From NCBI GenBank assembly GCA_021162305.1, contig JAGGYX010000175.1, forward strand, positions 1 to 10,256: 10,256 nt of DNA. The letters run 5' to 3'. Position 1 is the stretch's first letter, and each line of letters starts with the position of its first letter. The notes under the pieces are model-generated. The model had not been told where the DNA came from, did no database searches, and was given only the letters and a program-made list of their open reading frames with translations. Shown here in pieces: positions 2,052-10,256 of the stretch. The DNA comes from Thermoplasmata archaeon (GTDB lineage Archaea; Thermoplasmatota; E2; UBA202; JdFR-43). A program made the translations under genes and the position numbers.

Positions 2052-2450
2052 TTATTCCACGATCAAATTTTCCTCGAGTTTGTTATCGCTTGCCAGTAGA
2101 AACTCGCTGCTCATATTTAAAGCCCCGACAGGACATATATCATTGCACTGGCTGCAGAAAATGCATCTTGCCACATATATCTTTATTTTCTTTTCTTCTT
2201 TTTTGAATTCTATTGCTTTTGGTGGGCAAACTTTTATGCAGAGCTGGCACCCAATGCATTTTTCTCTATCATATACAATTTTTCCTCTAAAATCAGGTGG
2301 AGTGGCTACTGGAGGATTTAACTTTATTTTTTTCTTTTCCACTTTTTCCATGAATTTTTTAACATTTTTTGGAGCATATTTTGCTGGAAATAAATTGGTG
2401 AATGGCTTTTTTACCATTTGTCCGAGCAATTGCTTCAGCATTGGAAACAT
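2052..2450 (-). CDS. mbhN: Membrane-bound hydrogenase subunit N, 2x[4Fe-4S] ferredoxin-like (MbhN)
   Basis: This is the electron-input subunit of the peripheral arm. It relays electrons from reduced ferredoxin towards the cluster in MbhJ, and it is homologous to NuoI of complex I. The 132-residue protein has two classic CxxCxxCxxxCP motifs, at C65/C68/C71/C75 and C96/C99/C102/C106, each expected to bind a [4Fe-4S] cluster. The N-terminal ~55 residues are basic and probably dock on MbhM. The start ATG (2450-2448) shares one base with the mbhM stop (TAATG) and is preceded by GGGGAGGTGG inside the mbhM coding end. A longer in-frame reading from 2480 lies wholly within mbhM and is unlikely. It is the last gene of the operon, with stop TAA. 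Confidence 0.93.
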   Translation of the reverse strand: MFPMLKQLLGQMVKKPFTNLFPAKYAPKNVKKFMEKVEKKKIKLNPPVATPPDFRGKIVYDREKCIGCQLCIKVCPPKAIEFKKEEKKIKIYVARCIFCSQCNDICPVGALNMSSEFLLASDNKLEENLIVE

Positions 2451-3454
2451 TATAACCACCTCCCCACATGACTGTCCCACATTAGCAGCACGAGACCAAT
2501 GAGAGCAATAAGCGTGATTGTAACCCAGTAGCCTGTTACAACCTGTGTTATTCTCAATCTTGCAACTCCTGCCCTTATGAGCGTGACTGAGAATAGCATA
2601 ACTATGAATACTTTAAGCAGGAAGAAAAGAAAATCTGCTATTGAAGCAATTACACCATTCAATGAAAGAAGTGATGCAATTCCATATGGGAAAAATAAGG
2701 CTATTATGAGAGCCGAAAATGCAAAAATTTTCACTCCATCTGCCATATAAAACATCGCAAGATTTCTTCCAGAATATTCTACCGTCAATCCTTCAGCAAT
2801 TTCTGTTTCTGCCTCTGCAACATCAAATGGGATTTTTGCAAGCTCTCCTGGAGCAACAATAATCATGGAAAGCAAAAGCATGACAATGCCTATCAGTCCA
2901 AGCAAGCCAACATTCTCCCAGATGGGATGAGCTGTTATAAACGCCATGGAGAAAACATCTCCTCCTATGCCACTCAATTTCCATGCAATGCCAATTATAA
3001 TGACGGCGAGAGGCAACTCATATGAAATCATGGTGACAACCTCACGCTGCGCGCCGACGGCGGCGAATGGCGAGGAGCTGGCGAAGCCGCCAGCCACCAT
3101 AGCTATGGAAGGAATGGCAAATAGATATAGAATGAGTATAAGGTCCCCATGTCCTTCGAGTATTGCATCTATGCCGCCCCACGGAACATAAAGCAGGAGC
3201 ATTACAGAAGAGGCAAGACAGATTAAAGGAGCTGCATTAAAAAGCCATCTTACAGCATGCTTTGGAACAATATTCTCTTTACTCATTAGTTTTATAACAT
3301 CCAGGAAAGGCTGTCTTATTGGTGGACCAACGCGACCCTGCATATGTGCCACTATTTTACGATCTATACCTTTGTATAGCAAGCCAAAAAATATTGCAAT
3401 AAATGTTATTACAATTGCTTTCACAACCAGCCAGAAAAAGAAGCCACCATTCAT
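2450..3454 (-). CDS. mbhM: Membrane-bound hydrogenase subunit M, NuoH-like membrane anchor (MbhM)
   Basis: This is the 334-residue polytopic subunit that anchors the hydrogenase module and couples it to ion translocation, equivalent to NuoH/ND1. Hallmarks are RVGPP (41-45) with RQPFLDVIKL after it, GGFASSSPFAAVGAQRE (122-138), and PFDVAEAETEIAEG then EYSG near 209-229. These acidic loops line the quinone-like cavity and proton path in complex I. About eight hydrophobic helices are visible. The start ATG overlaps the mbhL stop (ATGA), with AAGGAGG about 8 bases upstream. The stop TAA is shared with the mbhN start. Bases 3041-3095 are unusually GC-rich for this window. Confidence 0.95.
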   Translation of the reverse strand: MNGGFFFWLVVKAIVITFIAIFFGLLYKGIDRKIVAHMQGRVGPPIRQPFLDVIKLMSKENIVPKHAVRWLFNAAPLICLASSVMLLLYVPWGGIDAILEGHGDLILILYLFAIPSIAMVAGGFASSSPFAAVGAQREVVTMISYELPLAVIIIGIAWKLSGIGGDVFSMAFITAHPIWENVGLLGLIGIVMLLLSMIIVAPGELAKIPFDVAEAETEIAEGLTVEYSGRNLAMFYMADGVKIFAFSALIIALFFPYGIASLLSLNGVIASIADFLFFLLKVFIVMLFSVTLIRAGVARLRITQVVTGYWVTITLIALIGLVLLMWDSHVGRWL

Positions 3455-4671
3455 TTCATCAACCTCCTTGTTTTTTGAACCGAAAGGCGATGGAAGTAGT
3501 CAGCATCGATTATTTTTTCCTCTCCATTCTTAACCACAGCAAACCTATTTGTGCATGACAGGCATGGGTCGATGCTCGCTGCAATTATTGGAATATCTGC
3601 AATTTGATAGCCAAGCAGCATTGGACGCCATGAAAGTATGTTTATGTATGTTGGAGCTCTGACCTTCCATGAATACAATGGCTCATAACCTTTCTTTAGC
3701 ATAACATAATGTATGTCCTCGCCTCTTGGCGCTTCATATCTTGCCACAGCTTCTCCTTCGCTACTTTTAATCTTTGCCATGAGCTTAACCAATTTTTTCT
3801 CAGCAATGATATCGCCAGAAGGCATGTTATTCAATGCTTCTTCTATTATCTCAACAGACTGTTTAACTTCAAGCAATCTAACAACAATTCTGTCATAAAC
3901 ATCTCCAACAGAATAGCCGAGCAGCTCGTCAGGCGTGATTGCATGAACATCAAAATCAGGATAAGCAAAATACGGAAAATCTTGGCGAACATCTTTTTTT
4001 ACTCCACTAGCTCTCGCTGTGGGCCCAGCTGCCGCCAGTTTTAAGGCATCTTCTTTTTTTAATATCCCTATCTCTCTTGTCCTCTTCTTTATTGTTTCAT
4101 CTTTCAAAAAAAGATTGGCAAGTTTATCAAAAGCTTCCAGATAATATGAACACATTTTTCTTATCAGCTTTGCTCTCTCCTCGTCTATATCTCTTCTTAC
4201 GCCACCATACATTATTATTGCCTTCGTAACTCTATTTCCATTAACTGCTTCAAGCACATCCATGACTTTTTCTCTTACCATCCACGTATAATGCAATAGA
4301 CTGTCAAAACCAATTTCATGAGCTGCCACACCTGCCCAAAGTAAATGGCTATGGATACGTTCCAGTTCACCCTGAATAACTCTTATCTACTGTGCTCTTT
4401 CTGGCACTTCTATATCAGCTATTTCTTCTATTGCCATCACAAGGTCGGAAGGATGGCAGAAATTGCATATGCCACATATTCTCTCTGCCAGATACAGGCT
4501 CTGTATGGGATTATTTCTATTCATTCCAATCCATTCTATGCCACGATGATTCTGACTTGCTATGACATCAACATCAACAATTTCCTCACCTTCTATAGTC
4601 AAACGTAACATTATTGGTTCTTTTAAAGCAGGATGAATTGGTCCAACTGCAATTTCGTAATCATGCCTCAT
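3451..4671 (-). CDS. mbhL: [NiFe]-hydrogenase large subunit (MbhL), interrupted by one in-frame TAG
   Basis: This is the catalytic subunit, which reduces protons to H2 at the NiFe site and is homologous to NuoD. Read straight through the TAG it is 406 residues, close to the family size. RICGIC gives C66 and C69, and DPCLSC gives C370 and C373. All four Ni ligands are therefore present, as in true hydrogenases and unlike Mbx/Mbs or NuoD. Codon 95 (4389-4387) is TAG. The frame then continues without a shift as IRVIQGELERIHSHLLWAG, a conserved helix, into the remaining 292 residues. A caller would split it into a 94-residue piece and one starting at GTG 4329, but that GTG has no ribosome binding site and lies inside conserved sequence. 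The start ATG 4671 follows GAGGTGG and overlaps mbhK by 11 bases. It ends in TGA. Confidence 0.9.
4387..4389 (-). other. In-frame TAG codon inside mbhL
   Basis: The codon reads TAG on the minus strand, flanked by PERAQ before and IRVIQGELERIHSHLLW after, all in one frame. Related large subunits have, to my recollection, tyrosine here (RA-x-Y-I/L-R), so a single base change from TAT or TAC explains it. Possible causes are a base-call error, a nonsense mutation, or UAG decoded as pyrrolysine or by a suppressor tRNA. Confidence 0.9.
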
Positions 4672-5182
4672 CTTTCCACCTCTCATATAGCTTGTTTGTT
4701 TCTTTTACGCCAGCCTCATCCCGCCTCCATGGGTAAACGCCAGAAGGAAAATCCTTTGTCAAAAACATGTGTCTGCCATCTGGAATGTTTATAACCTCGA
4801 TGCCCATCATTTCCTGTATCTCTCTTTCGGAATATATTACAGCTGGAAATATATCTGCTATTGAATCAATTTTTAAATCATTTTTTGGAAGGTTAACCTT
4901 AAATGTGATAACATATTCCTCTAAACGACGACCATATCCAAGAGCGAAATGGTAATTTAATTCAATAATGTTTTCCAAATCTGTGCATGATATTATGCTA
5001 AAATGCGGATATTGATCAGCAATCTCCTTAAAAAATTGCATCGCTTCTCTAAACTTCTCCTTATCAACTTTTATCCACAGCGTCTTTCTCGCCACTTTGT
5101 TTCTCACTCCTGCAACGCGCTCTGTAATCCATGTTTCATAACCAGCTTTTTCAAATTCTTGCTTCACTTCTTCAATATTCAT
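4661..5182 (-). CDS. mbhK: Membrane-bound hydrogenase subunit K, NuoC-like 30 kDa (MbhK)
   Basis: This soluble 173-residue subunit packs against the large and small subunits in the peripheral arm and carries no cofactor. It matches the NuoC/NADH dehydrogenase 30 kDa family. The signature SEREIQEMMGI is at residues 118-128, followed by IPDGRHMFLTKDFP and the C-terminal YPWRRDE, which replaces the usual HPDLR/LPEDF-like turn. The start ATG overlaps the mbhJ stop (ATGA), with GGAGGTG just upstream. Its end overlaps the mbhL start by 11 bases. Confidence 0.92.
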   Translation of the reverse strand: MNIEEVKQEFEKAGYETWITERVAGVRNKVARKTLWIKVDKEKFREAMQFFKEIADQYPHFSIISCTDLENIIELNYHFALGYGRRLEEYVITFKVNLPKNDLKIDSIADIFPAVIYSEREIQEMMGIEVINIPDGRHMFLTKDFPSGVYPWRRDEAGVKETNKLYERWKDEA

Positions 5183-5613
5183 TTCTTCACCTCCAGTTCC
5201 TCAAGCCACTCCCATGCTTTTGCAAATGCCTGTATTATTGCTTCTGGACGAGGAGGACAGCCTGGCACATAAAAATATTTTGCATTTGGATAGAGCTTAT
5301 CTATTGGTCCAGCTAAATGGTAAGACTCATGGAAGACGCCTCCGCCTATGCCGCAGGAGCCAACAACGACGATAACTTTTGGATCAGGCGTCTGCTCTAT
5401 TATCCTTATAACTTTATCCTTCATATCATTTGTTACTGGACCAGTAAATGCTATGACATCTGCATGGCGTGGTGAGCCAACAAGTTTTATACCAAATCGC
5501 TCTGCGTCATAGCGTGGCGTTAAAGCGGCTATTATTTCAATATCACATCCATTACATGAACCGCTATTGACATGGAATACCCATAATGAGCGCTTGAAAG
5601 CTTTTGGAATCAT
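5179..5613 (-). CDS. mbhJ: [NiFe]-hydrogenase small subunit (MbhJ), NuoB-like
   Basis: It holds the [4Fe-4S] cluster next to the NiFe site and passes electrons from MbhN to MbhL. The 144-residue NuoB-type protein has the four expected ligands: C20 and C23 in SGSCNGCD, C87 in VGSCGIGGG, and C119 in PGCPPRPE. It is short, with one proximal cluster only, as is normal for group 4 enzymes. The start ATG 5613 is preceded by GGAGGTGAT (7-base spacing to the GGAGG core) and overlaps the mbhI stop (ATGA). An upstream in-frame reading to 5673 lies inside mbhI and is rejected. Confidence 0.95.
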   Translation of the reverse strand: MIPKAFKRSLWVFHVNSGSCNGCDIEIIAALTPRYDAERFGIKLVGSPRHADVIAFTGPVTNDMKDKVIRIIEQTPDPKVIVVVGSCGIGGGVFHESYHLAGPIDKLYPNAKYFYVPGCPPRPEAIIQAFAKAWEWLEELEVKK

Positions 5614-5942
5614 GGTATCACCTCCTGAGCAAACAGTGCAATGAAAAGCAAAACAGCTATGAAAACAAACCATGAGACATAATTGTTTATTATTCCATCA
5701 TGCATTTTTTCCATTATACCATAATAGCCCTTCATTGATTCTGTGAAGCCCCAGTATATGTTCGATGCCCTGACATGCGTCTTTTCTGTCGGCAGTTCAA
5801 CGCCTGAGAAGAATGGCTCTTCCGCTTCTTTTCTATAGCCCTTCTTTCCAAAACTTCTTATGATATAGACGACGATGCATATAACGATGAATGTAATAAT
5901 CCATGCAATTGCATCCCAATATCCACCAGTGGTATGTAACAT
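5610..5942 (-). CDS. mbhI: Membrane-bound hydrogenase subunit I (MbhI), bridging membrane subunit
   Basis: This 110-residue protein has hydrophobic helices at about 11-29 and 89-107, with a polar, partly amphipathic middle. In the Pyrococcus Mbh structure the equivalent subunit links the antiporter arm (MbhH) to the hydrogenase membrane module (MbhM), like the lateral-helix end of NuoL. Assignment rests on the helix pattern and its exact position between mbhH and mbhJ. Start: ATG 5942 follows AGGAGG with 8-base spacing and lies one base after the mbhH stop. The GTG at 5951 overlaps that ribosome binding site and is unlikely. The family is present in Mbh and lacking from Mbx/Mbs operons, which supports Mbh identity. 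Confidence 0.85.
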   Translation of the reverse strand: MLHTTGGYWDAIAWIITFIVICIVVYIIRSFGKKGYRKEAEEPFFSGVELPTEKTHVRASNIYWGFTESMKGYYGIMEKMHDGIINNYVSWFVFIAVLLFIALFAQEVIP

Positions 5943-5943
5943 T

Positions 5944-7491
5944 TTATGCACCTCCTGTGACAGCTGCTATATATGCCATTTTATCAGCTAAAGCCATGGC
6001 GGCTGGATGAACAATATGGTTTACAACCCATCCTGGAAATACACCAAAGAATATTATTACAAATGTGAGAACAGCCATTCCGAGAAGCATGCTCTTTGGC
6101 ACTTCTTTAACATCGTGCAATTTTGGACCCATGAAGGCAGAATGAAAAACTTTTATGAATGATGCCAGTGTAAGTATTGAAACAAGCATTGCCACGATAG
6201 AAAGAATGGGGCTTACTTTGTAACATGCTTCATATATGAGTAATTTTGATGCAAAGCCATTGAAAGGAGGTATACCAGCTATAGCAAGTGCACCTATCAT
6301 GAAAAATATGGAGGTGAATTTCATTGTATGGCCCAAGCCACCCATTTCATTTAAATTTCGAGTTCCAAGACGGTAATATATTGCGCCTGCCGTTAAGAAA
6401 AGCAACCCTTTATACATTGCATGATTTATTATGTGGAATATTCCTCCTTCCATCGCTTTTATTCCATATGTATTGAAATCTTGAGAGCCAAGCAGATATA
6501 AGCCCACGCCAACGCCAAGCAACATGTAGCCAGTCTGGCTGATAGCATGATATGCCATTAGCCTTTTGATATCCTTTTGAGGCAATGCCATTGTAACGCC
6601 AATAAACATGGAAAGCAAACCAAATATTATGATGGCAATTCCTATTGTTTGATAACTCATGAGGCTGCCATATAAGGTGAATGAAACCCTGAACAATGCA
6701 TATAAACTTGCCTGGCTTGCTGCCACCAGCATTGCCGTTATGGCGGCTGGCGCAGTGCTATAGCTGTCTGGAGCCCAGAAATGCATAGGCACAGCCCCAC
6801 ATTTCATTGCAAAGGCAGCGACAAACAAAACCAAAGCAATTTTGTCCAGCTGCGTGTATTGCATTACATGGGCTATGGCAGCGATATTAAGCAAATCGTA
6901 TTGGGCATACAGCAATGCAACAGCAAAGAGAACAAATAAAGCTGCTATATTTGAAATGACCATATATTTAAATGCTCCTTCAACAGCATCTGCATGCTGA
7001 CGATAAGCTATGAGACCGCATGAAGTTATGGAAAGAATTTCAAGGAAAACAAAGAGGTTAAACAAATCACCTGTAAATTCCATTCCTATCATGCCAGCGA
7101 GCATTAGAAGCAGGAGCGTATAATAACGAGCTTTTGCATTACTTTCTTTAATGAAAGCTATTGAGTATATTCCTGCTGCCAAGCTTACAGTTGCAGATAT
7201 CAATCCCATAAAGGCTGCCATACCATCGATTTCCAGAACAATTCTTATTGGCACAGCTGCCTGTGTTGGTATAGCGCCTGTTGGATTCTTGGCACCCATT
7301 GTATAGATTACTATGTCATTTGTAAAAACATGCCAAGCGAGTAATATGACAAGCAATTCTTCAATTATCAGAATTGCCAGAACAAATGCATTCCTTGCTT
7401 TCTTGCTTGCAATGTTTATTAATGGCGTTAGAAAAGCTGCCAGCAATGGCAAGCCAATTGCTATAGCAGGTATTGCTTCATTATAAATCAT
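5944..7491 (-). CDS. mbhH: Membrane-bound hydrogenase subunit H, MnhD/NuoN-like antiporter (MbhH)
   Basis: This is the large 515-residue ion-translocating subunit, of the proton-conducting family that includes MrpD and NuoL/M/N. About 14 hydrophobic helices are visible. Key residues fit the family: E151 in FVFLEILSIT (helix 5), K230 in AMKCGAVPMHFWAPD (helix 7), H315 in MAYHAISQTGYM, and H353/H357/K361 in the IFHIINHAMYKG segment. It would move protons (and couple Na+ exchange) in response to ferredoxin-driven H2 formation. The start ATG overlaps the mbhG stop (ATGA), with AAGGAGG upstream. Only one antiporter-size subunit is present, whereas Mbx/Mbs operons carry two. Confidence 0.96.
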   Translation of the reverse strand: MIYNEAIPAIAIGLPLLAAFLTPLINIASKKARNAFVLAILIIEELLVILLAWHVFTNDIVIYTMGAKNPTGAIPTQAAVPIRIVLEIDGMAAFMGLISATVSLAAGIYSIAFIKESNAKARYYTLLLLMLAGMIGMEFTGDLFNLFVFLEILSITSCGLIAYRQHADAVEGAFKYMVISNIAALFVLFAVALLYAQYDLLNIAAIAHVMQYTQLDKIALVLFVAAFAMKCGAVPMHFWAPDSYSTAPAAITAMLVAASQASLYALFRVSFTLYGSLMSYQTIGIAIIIFGLLSMFIGVTMALPQKDIKRLMAYHAISQTGYMLLGVGVGLYLLGSQDFNTYGIKAMEGGIFHIINHAMYKGLLFLTAGAIYYRLGTRNLNEMGGLGHTMKFTSIFFMIGALAIAGIPPFNGFASKLLIYEACYKVSPILSIVAMLVSILTLASFIKVFHSAFMGPKLHDVKEVPKSMLLGMAVLTFVIIFFGVFPGWVVNHIVHPAAMALADKMAYIAAVTGGA

Positions 7492-7844
7492 CCTTTCAAC
7501 CTCCTTGAATGACTATCCAAGCTTTTATTGTGCTCGTAGAACTTCATTATGAAAGAGAGGGTTAAAGCAAGAACAGCCACGCCTATAACAATGCTTGTGA
7601 GTGTCAAAGCTTGAGGAACGGGCAATACCATGCCTTCTGGAGCTTTCACACCAGGTGGCAAATTTGTATAAATTGGAGCAATTCCACCCTCTCTATAGCC
7701 AAGAGTAATCAAAAAGAGATTTACCCCGCTCTCAATTATTGTAATTCCTATTGCAATCTTTATAAGATTTCGCTTAAACATTACAGCATATAATCCTATT
7801 GCTATGAGCAATGCAACCGTTATGAATGGTATATTCCATATCAT
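7488..7844 (-). CDS. mbhG: Membrane-bound hydrogenase subunit G, MnhC/NuoK-like (MbhG)
   Basis: This 118-residue protein has three membrane helices, in the NuoK/MrpC family. An acidic residue, E38, lies in the second helix (ITIIESGVNLFL), as in the ion channel of NuoK. The motif LPVPQALTLTSIVIG begins the third helix at residue 74. It forms part of the antiporter module beside MbhH. The start ATG overlaps the mbhF stop (ATGA) and is preceded by GGTGATG, a weaker match to the anti-SD than at its neighbours. Confidence 0.93.
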   Translation of the reverse strand: MIWNIPFITVALLIAIGLYAVMFKRNLIKIAIGITIIESGVNLFLITLGYREGGIAPIYTNLPPGVKAPEGMVLPVPQALTLTSIVIGVAVLALTLSFIMKFYEHNKSLDSHSRRLKG

Positions 7845-8308
7845 TCTTCATCACCTGCCATAGCCATTATCATTACAACAGCTGCCAAGCCACCTATAAC
7901 CTTCATTCCAACAGCAATATTCAGTATGGGCAGCACACCGCCGCTATCCAATATTCCGCTGTTGCCTCCAAATGGTGGAATCTTTCCAAACACGGGTGTG
8001 CCAACCAAGAAATTATACATAAACGAAGTAGCCATAAAAACTCCAGCAAACGCAACCAGTGCAAATATTGCAGCTCCAATGCTTTCTGCCATACTCAGCC
8101 CTTCCTCGCTCACTTTCTTCTTCATTCTCTCATGTCCATAGGCGGCAATCATCATAACTATGGCGCTTGCCGCTATCGCTCCTCCCTGAAAGCCGCCGCC
8201 TGGCGTAAGATGACCATGCATGATGACATAGAATGAAAAGACAAGGATGAACGGCAGCAGCATCGTTGCTATAGTTCGCACTATTATGCTCATCCTTCCA
8301 TCATTCAT
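7841..8308 (-). CDS. mbhF: Membrane-bound hydrogenase subunit F, MnhB-like (MbhF)
   Basis: A 155-residue MrpB/MnhB-family membrane protein with about four helices. The family signature HGHLTPGGGFQGGAI is at 31-45, and a second glycine-rich loop lies near 105-124. It belongs to the Mrp-like cation/proton antiporter module and probably contributes to the Na+ path. The start ATG 8308 follows AAAGGAGG and overlaps the mbhE end by 8 bases. Confidence 0.93.
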   Translation of the reverse strand: MNDGRMSIIVRTIATMLLPFILVFSFYVIMHGHLTPGGGFQGGAIAASAIVMMIAAYGHERMKKKVSEEGLSMAESIGAAIFALVAFAGVFMATSFMYNFLVGTPVFGKIPPFGGNSGILDSGGVLPILNIAVGMKVIGGLAAVVMIMAMAGDEE

Positions 8309-8567
8309 TTTTTCCCTCCTTTCTCAATGTTATTAAAGCACCTGCTATTGCTGAGAACAGAACCGTTGCTTCTCCAAGAGTGTCATAACCTCTGTAATCA
8401 AAGACAACGCTTGTAACAACATTGTTGGCAGCAGTCTCATTCTGAGCATTCATGATTATATAATCATCCATCCCGCTTTCCTGCAATTCTCCGAAAGGAT
8501 GAACTTTTATTGCAGCATATATCATGAAGGCAGCAAATATTATGAAAACTATTGCTTTTGCTTTCAT
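8301..8567 (-). CDS. mbhE: Membrane-bound hydrogenase subunit E (MbhE)
   Basis: This 88-residue protein has an N-terminal helix at about 4-21 and a second at about 65-80. The block VVFDYRGYDTLGEATVLF at 54-71 is characteristic of MbhE and of the C-terminal part of MrpA, in which D and E residues line the ion route. It overlaps mbhD by ATGA, with AAGGAGGTGG just ahead of the start. The upstream stretch carries a polar loop (residues ~28-50) facing outside. Confidence 0.9.
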   Translation of the reverse strand: MKAKAIVFIIFAAFMIYAAIKVHPFGELQESGMDDYIIMNAQNETAANNVVTSVVFDYRGYDTLGEATVLFSAIAGALITLRKEGKNE

Positions 8568-8821
8568 TTTTCCACCTCCTTGCGTTGCGTCGCCCTTATG
8601 GCTATGATAAATAAAGCTGTTGTGATGCAGGCGCCGACGCCCGCCTCCGCAATTGCAACATCAGGGGCATGAAGAAGATAAAAATATAAAGAAAGCAATA
8701 GGCTCATTATGGCAAGAGCAATAACACATGCAAGCAAATCTTTCATCACAACAGCCAGAATGGCTGGAATGACTGTAAATATGGACAATATAATGAGAGC
8801 TATTCCAAAAAGACTAAGCAT
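8564..8821 (-). CDS. mbhD: Membrane-bound hydrogenase subunit D, DUF4040-type (MbhD)
   Basis: This 85-residue, three-helix protein corresponds to part of the MrpA C-terminal region. The hallmark HAPDVAIAEAGVGA is at 51-64, and E59 is the likely ion-path acid. Start: ATG 8821 lies 9 bases after GGAGG (GGAGGGTGATAAAA), so translation begins within the last codons of mbhC, an 8-base overlap. The longer in-frame reading from 8872 lies entirely inside mbhC, lacks a better ribosome binding site and is rejected. Confidence 0.9.
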   Translation of the reverse strand: MLSLFGIALIILSIFTVIPAILAVVMKDLLACVIALAIMSLLLSLYFYLLHAPDVAIAEAGVGACITTALFIIAIRATQRKEVEK

Positions 8822-9167
8822 TTTTATCACCCTCCAGCTCATCCACCATCGCTTTAGCAGGTTTAACTCCACTTCTATGAGCTGCTCTTGCTATTGCATG
8901 TGCTCCCGTTGGATTTGTAAGCAATATTGCTATTAAAGCAAAAAATGAATGTATGGCAAGGCTTATCATTGCTTTTTCTCCATCATACCATTTCCATAAG
9001 CCATACGCCATGACGGCTAAAGCAATAAAAATACTTCCGAATGTTGTGCATTTCGTTCCAGCATGTAAGCGAGTATATACGTCGGGAAAGCGAAGCAAGC
9101 CAACTGAGGCAAGTAAATTAAAGAATATGCCTATTCCAAGCAATGTGTAAATCAGTTCCCACATCAT
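8814..9167 (-). CDS. mbhC: Membrane-bound hydrogenase subunit C, MnhG-like (MbhC)
   Basis: A 117-residue MrpG/MnhG-family protein with three helices. The signature GLLRFPDVYTRLHAGTKC starts at residue 23, and LTNPTGAHAIARAAH follows at 83-97. It is part of the antiporter module. Two tandem ATGs are available (9167 and 9164); the first overlaps the mbhB stop, and a GGAGGG lies about 10 bases upstream. It ends with TAG (8816-8814), the only gene here that does so at a natural end, so TAG does act as a stop in this genome. Confidence 0.93.
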   Translation of the reverse strand: MMWELIYTLLGIGIFFNLLASVGLLRFPDVYTRLHAGTKCTTFGSIFIALAVMAYGLWKWYDGEKAMISLAIHSFFALIAILLTNPTGAHAIARAAHRSGVKPAKAMVDELEGDKNA

Positions 9168-9421
9168 ATTCTACCACCCTCCAGATATTTTGCAATCAGA
9201 ACAGTTGTTATGTAAGATAGCAATGCATACACAATGGCAACATCTATATATATGACCTCTTTCTTGGCTGCACCAAAAACGAGCATACTTGCTATAACCA
9301 GAGTATTTACTGTATCAAGTCCAACAACTCTATCTGGTATGGTTGGACCGAGTATTGCTCTTATCATCGCTATTAATATAGAAATGCTTAACAACACCAG
9401 AGTTATCATAAATGGGTTCAT
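9164..9421 (-). CDS. mbhB: Membrane-bound hydrogenase subunit B, MnhF-like (MbhB)
   Basis: An 85-residue, three-helix protein of the MrpF/MnhF family. GPTIPDRVVGLDTVN (25-39) is the family hallmark, followed by IDVAIVYALLSYITT. It is part of the antiporter module. Start: ATG 9421 overlaps the mbhA stop (ATGA) and follows AAGGAGG. A longer in-frame reading to 9472 lies within mbhA and is rejected. The length matches MnhF proteins of 85-90 residues. Confidence 0.93.
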   Translation of the reverse strand: MNPFMITLVLLSISILIAMIRAILGPTIPDRVVGLDTVNTLVIASMLVFGAAKKEVIYIDVAIVYALLSYITTVLIAKYLEGGRI

Positions 9422-9924
9422 TCTCCTATCCTCCTTGCCCAATCTGGAAATGTTGAGCAAACATACCTGCATTTACATTTTACGTCCTCTACTTCAAAAA
9501 ATTCTGGCTTAACATTTATCCAATGCACATATAGATTGCCTTCCTCGTCGACATCAACACTTAGTGTTCCAGGTGTAAGTGTAATAGAATTTGCCAGAAT
9601 CGTTATTGAAAGGTTGTTTTTTAAATGCGGAGAAAGCTTAATAATGCCAGGCTTTATCCTGCCAGTTATGACTCGATAAGCTACATCAAAATTTGCTTTT
9701 GCCATTTCATAGAAGAAACGGGGCAGATACGCAATCAAATAAAGCCATTTTTTTGGAGATAATGAACGATATTCTTTTATTGCTAATTTTTTTGTTATTA
9801 CTCCAGCTACTATGGAAAAAATTATGCCAGCTGTTATCTCGTCCCAGTTCCATAAATTGCCATTGAAAGTAAACAATAGCCACAAAACAAAGCATAAGAT
9901 TGTCGCTCCTATAAATCCCCTCAT
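9418..9924 (-). CDS. mbhA: Membrane-bound hydrogenase subunit A, MnhE-like (MbhA)
   Basis: This is the first gene of the operon, encoding a 168-residue MrpE/MnhE-family protein. Hydrophobic helices lie at about 2-20, 28-45 and 58-75, followed by a soluble domain with the signature NSITLTPGTLSVD (112-124). It sits at the end of the antiporter arm. The start ATG has no ribosome binding site upstream. A TATA-like TTTAAATA is centred about 25 bases ahead, pointing to a leaderless message. Near its C-terminus are three closely spaced cysteines, C150, C152 and C156, that I do not recall as a family feature. Confidence 0.93.
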   Translation of the reverse strand: MRGFIGATILCFVLWLLFTFNGNLWNWDEITAGIIFSIVAGVITKKLAIKEYRSLSPKKWLYLIAYLPRFFYEMAKANFDVAYRVITGRIKPGIIKLSPHLKNNLSITILANSITLTPGTLSVDVDEEGNLYVHWINVKPEFFEVEDVKCKCRYVCSTFPDWARRIGE

Positions 9925-10043: not shown

Positions 10044-10256
10044 TCACAAATACAAAAGAAACAGGAAAATGGCGTAAAATATGAGGAAAGTCACGCCGAT
10101 CATTCTGCTATACAATTTCTTCCACGCTATCATCGTTATCAAAAAAGAGGCGAAAATGAAAAACAGAAAGGTTAAATCTATGGAAACCGCGATTTTCCCT
10201 ACAATGCATGATAGCCCTAAAACGATACCAAGGTTGACAATATTGCTCCCTATTAC
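10044..10256 (-). CDS. Sodium/calcium exchanger family protein, C-terminal part (truncated by the window edge)
   Basis: The minus-strand frame entering at the right edge is open for 70 residues to a TGA at 10046-10044. It begins VIGSNIVNLGIVLG, the GSN-x-x-N motif of the second alpha repeat of CaCA-type (CaxA/YrbG-like) cation exchangers, in which the asparagine-rich turn binds the cation. Two hydrophobic helices follow (about residues 29-43 and 52-69), separated by a basic turn (WKKLYSR), matching the usual C-terminus of these proteins. The product would exchange Na+ for Ca2+ across the membrane. It lies 119 bases ahead of mbhA in the same direction, but mbhA has its own promoter. The family call rests on a short fragment. 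Confidence 0.7.
   Translation of the reverse strand, partial: VIGSNIVNLGIVLGLSCIVGKIAVSIDLTFLFFIFASFLITMIAWKKLYSRMIGVTFLIFYAIFLFLLYL

Follow-up and report, generated by a model that had tools for sequence, protein, structure and literature searches.

We find that mbhL, the gene for the catalytic large subunit of a group 4 membrane-bound [NiFe] hydrogenase in a Thermoplasmata draft genome, is interrupted at codon 100 by an in-frame TAG, and we consider it very probable that this TAG, rather than being decoded, is a nonsense change of one base that stands alone in the assembled consensus. The window (the whole stretch of DNA that was analysed, 10,256 nucleotides) is the entire contig 182 of the draft, which comprises 1,440,462 bases in 223 contigs and is 93.3% complete. 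Within it, the plus-strand CTA at 4387-4389 is a minus-strand TAG inside the mbhL frame (3451-4686, minus strand), corresponding to codon 100 when counted from the ATG at 4686 and to codon 95 when counted from an inner ATG at 4671; the sequence and the codons of relatives together place it at a conserved tyrosine codon. As the first-pass annotation had described, the frame contains this single TAG and is elsewhere open, up to the TGA at 3453-3451. As one nonsense base in a draft assembly, the TAG carries little biological weight, except as a caution against taking a lone in-frame TAG of a draft genome as evidence for recoding.

The identity of the interrupted gene is supported by structural and family matches and by its gene context. 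Among solved structures, the best match of mbhL is chain L of 6cfw (E 5.1e-118, query residues 4-374), which we take to come from Pyrococcus furiosus, and the two halves of the gene match the Pfam families PF00374 and PF00346. The stretch before the TAG (4390-4686, minus strand, 99 codons) carries the first cysteine pair of the large subunit, ICGIC, and the stretch behind it (3454-4386, minus strand, 311 codons) carries the second, DPCLSC, in line with the earlier statement that the Ni-ligand cysteines are kept. The earliest ATG, GTG or TTG in the latter stretch is a GTG at 4329, after 19 codons. The gene belongs to a cluster of 14 overlapping or abutting minus-strand genes (9924-2052) encoding Mrp-like subunits, an MbhD-domain protein and complex-I-like subunits B, C, D, H and I, of which mbhL is the D-like one; the presence of Mrp-like and complex-I-like partners in one cluster, together with both cysteine pairs, marks the enzyme as group 4 and Mbh-type. 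Eleven partner genes, complex-I-like and Mrp-antiporter-like, lie upstream (4661-9924, minus strand) and were covered by a family scan with the exception of 8301-8567; the gene at 5613-5951 (minus strand) had no Pfam match at E 0.001 and is MbhI-like by position only. Downstream of mbhL follow an mbhM-like gene (2450-3454, minus strand), whose start codon shares an ATGA (3454-3451) with the mbhL stop, and an mbhN-like gene (2052-2480, minus strand). None of the 13 partner genes of the cluster was found to contain an internal stop, and the earlier description of all of them as intact therefore stands. With the Mbh represented by 6cfw chain L, the system shares homology, the tyrosine position and the gene set with Mrp-like, MbhD-domain and complex-I-like subunits, but it differs in the one TAG at that tyrosine codon, in this assembly.

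The tyrosine that the first-pass annotation had expected at the TAG position is present in all 53 homologous loci read, four same-genus genomes included, in a set that holds several genomes twice as two collections overlap. Reading by motif gave a tyrosine codon in 52 of the 53 loci (L034-L086; 31 TAT and 21 TAC), and the one locus missed by the motif (L059) has tyrosine by alignment. An alignment of L034-L062 places tyrosine at the position in 29/29 loci; the window keeps 146 of the 147 columns that are invariant in these relatives (among columns present in at least 25 loci) and departs at the TAG only (query position 93). When the comparison is confined to the four same-genus loci, 323 columns are invariant and the window departs at four of them, namely the TAG and three ordinary substitutions. 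Among the named genomes of the collection, the closest relatives are the Thermoplasmata MAGs AUK146 and AUK114, with 94% identity in the MbhL protein. At the same place, the nearest sister reads ...GCGCAATATATAAGAG and the window reads ...GCACAGTAGATAAGAG, with TAT at the codon in sister G002 and a context near-identical to that of the window (a comparison of the window row with the L110 row); the nonsense change is therefore a T to G at the third codon base, which supports the earlier leaning towards a simple change from TAT or TAC to TAG. In the printed alignment 6cfw chain L also has tyrosine at the aligned position, and the aligned residue of 7z0s chain E, a formate hydrogenlyase subunit, is methionine, so that tyrosine is not required across the wider family. 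The stops noted in paralogous hydrogenase genes of G003 and G037 (TGA; TGA and TAA) and of G031 (TAG) were set aside, as they sit where those proteins ordinarily end. Five of the MbhL relatives (L080, L081 and L083-L085, 60-61% identity) lie on contigs labelled Dehalococcoidia, a bacterial group, and may reflect gene transfer or mislabelled bins.

The rest of mbhL bears the marks of purifying selection, as had been proposed from the window itself. With sister G002 as reference, mbhL has a dN/dS of 0.035 and ranks lowest among the nine cluster genes compared (0.035 to 0.090, one partial), the other five having no match in the G002 stretch used (18,500 of 24,161 bases). Against G003 the ratio is 0.066, which is mid-range (fifth lowest of 13 ratios), so that the rank of lowest is true for G002 only, and with a dS of about 1.1 all of these ratios are rough. 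Relative to G002, dN is 0.035 before the TAG and 0.040 after it, without relaxation past the stop. The relaxed selection and further lesions of an established pseudogene are thus absent, both ratios being low and no other stop being present. If the stop were long standing and unread, more change behind it would be expected; conservation of the rest of mbhL would also be expected if the TAG were efficiently read as tyrosine. Taken together, the tyrosine in all relatives, the TAG as sole departure and the low dN/dS indicate that the base has changed very recently or is not real.

We propose that a TAT tyrosine codon came to read G at its third base in the assembled consensus, either through an error in the consensus or a base from a minority strain, or through a nonsense mutation too recent for further decay. 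To the first of these, in which a wrong, low-coverage or minority-strain base entered the consensus and the living population keeps the tyrosine codon, we assign an even chance: neither mbhL nor its 13 partners show another interruption, the change concerns a single third base, and the genome is a draft in 223 contigs, but the TAG lies mid-contig, and the 290 kb sampled from this genome showed no broader set of such errors. Slightly short of even is the chance we give to a genuine nonsense mutation of very recent date, or a strain polymorphism, by which all or part of the population has lost Mbh. Purifying selection on mbhL until recently is in agreement with such an event, as is a survey that reports stops within reading frames to be widespread in bacterial genomes and to persist only briefly (Belinky et al., 2021; PMC7918605); against it, mbhL is without an internal stop in four other genomes of the genus, which would make its loss unusual, and no second lesion accompanies the TAG. 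The survey also expects artefacts to make up a substantial fraction of the raw cases, and its pattern fits the mbhL TAG in that both concern a single in-frame stop in a gene that purifying selection maintains, but the case here comes from one draft genome and its stop is not shared by relatives, whereas the large-scale set of the survey is bacterial and centres on stops common to different species (Belinky et al., 2021). The sister MAGs probably stem from the Auka vent study, judging by the MAG names, and that article reports Illumina HiSeq reads assembled with SPAdes and MEGAHIT (PMC9213671). Should the TAG be real, translation would end after 99 residues, before the second pair of Ni-ligand cysteines, and would probably also be lowered for mbhM, which overlaps mbhL by ATGA, and for mbhN behind it; cells bearing the TAG would thus lose Mbh.

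In some organisms tRNA-Tyr is able to misread UAG, and an ordinary tRNA, for example tRNA-Tyr(GUA), might do so here at a low level and restore the normal residue. The residue expected is tyrosine, an intron-containing tRNA-Tyr(GTA) is present in the same genome, and selection is as strong distal to the TAG as proximal to it, all of which would suit leaky read-through of this kind; we nevertheless regard it as improbable, since no relative read retains the TAG and there is accordingly no sign of maintained read-through. Smaller again, in our estimate, is the likelihood that a real, fixed UAG is read as tyrosine by an ordinary tRNA-Tyr and keeps hydrogenase at a low level in the population. A second tRNA-Tyr call (L101) has the canonical anticodon GTG and is therefore taken as a tRNA-His.

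Dedicated recoding of UAG, by pyrrolysine or by a suppressor tRNA-Tyr, is in our view extremely improbable. The first-pass annotation had proposed to look for pyl or suppressor genes and for ordinary TAG stops, and the outcome speaks against recoding, within a draft that is 93% complete and a tRNA set that is incomplete. PylS models (NF007083, TIGR02367) gave no match over cut-off in this 93% complete draft, and the positive control, M. acetivorans, scored over it; across 99 genomes, from the window's own out to the phylum, PylS exceeded the cut-off in none, and 84 had weak matches below it. The weak PylS matches of the genome itself are HisRS and ThrRS, and its one weak PylB match, likewise below cut-off, is another radical SAM protein. 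PylC, PylD and MttB had no match in the draft. The case shares with pyrrolysine-encoding archaea a TAG within a conserved archaeal gene, but it differs from them in that PylS, PylB, PylC and PylD do not reach cut-off, MttB is not found, tyrosine is the expected residue and TAG is a common stop.

One tRNA call appeared to favour dedicated recoding: with introns allowed, ARAGORN called a tRNA-Pyl(CUA) in the same genome (G000 contig 83:88-208; L030), placing the intron within the anticodon. The call was rejected, as the spliced gene is 73/73 identical to the intronless tRNA-Gln(CUG) of relative G012; the splice junction was picked as the best match to that tRNA-Gln, and two neighbouring junctions yield the same sequence. 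When the contig 83 tRNA is read on past its 5' exon without a break, its anticodon is CTG, and the same exons occur without an intron in relatives, where 5/11 loci were called as tRNA-Gln(CTG) and the other six gave no call. The tRNA-Gln(CUG) of this genome thus contains a 48-base intron that is lacking in relatives such as G005, G007 and G012, and the intron mode of ARAGORN can make an archaeal tRNA-Gln(CUG) look like a tRNA-Pyl(CUA), which calls for caution elsewhere. A copy 90% identical to this intron-bearing gene is found in the sister genome (G002:C63:88-215; L111). A further tRNA-Gln-like copy (L122, G000:C195:595-717, minus strand), whose intron is similar, misses its 3' acceptor part after the T-arm and may have been left behind at an integration site. 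The tRNAs examined comprised 32 Rfam matches and 47 T-arm matches, the latter representing 46 distinct sequences, and by canonical reading a CUA anticodon was found in none of these 46 (30 gave a tRNA call and 16 none). Expected tRNAs such as Trp and Glu are absent from the calls, and the Rfam search missed at least one tRNA-like sequence (contig 195); because the set is incomplete and the draft, in 223 contigs, is 93.3% complete, a suppressor tRNA may have escaped detection, and we treat the tRNA evidence against decoding as supporting, not conclusive.

The use of TAG elsewhere in the genome likewise argues against its being decoded. In a sample of 289,624 bases, made up of 16 contig stretches chosen for holding tRNAs and 20 low-numbered contigs, TAG ends 44/262 ORFs of at least 80 amino acids and is therefore an ordinary stop. 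We scanned for split genes among 40 adjacent in-frame ORF pairs, each half having at least 40 codons, and flagged pairs in which the first 15 codons of the second half were free of start codons; any split gene with a chance start close behind its stop would therefore fall among the 31 pairs left unflagged. The scan flagged mbhL of the window, as expected of a working scan, and nine further pairs, none of which has a TAG junction (0/9). Three of the nine have two long halves and were dismissed, as the Pfam families differ on each side, and the other six have one half of at most 67 codons. At a limit of 60 codons, one of the 16 pairs listed from the first 16 stretches has a TAG junction (L106, 75 + 60 codons), with a start codon nine codons past the TAG. 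Neither sign of genome-wide UAG reassignment, TAG being rare as a stop or recurring inside conserved genes, was found among the sampled ORFs and the flagged pairs.

Two further features flank the hydrogenase cluster within the window. A restriction-modification pair adjoins it at 155-1989 on the plus strand, consisting of a CcrM-like DNA methyltransferase, which scored below the cut-off of that model, and a type II restriction enzyme of the HpyAIV family, which scored over it. On the other side, the end of a sodium/calcium exchanger gene (10044-10256, minus strand) is cut by the contig edge.
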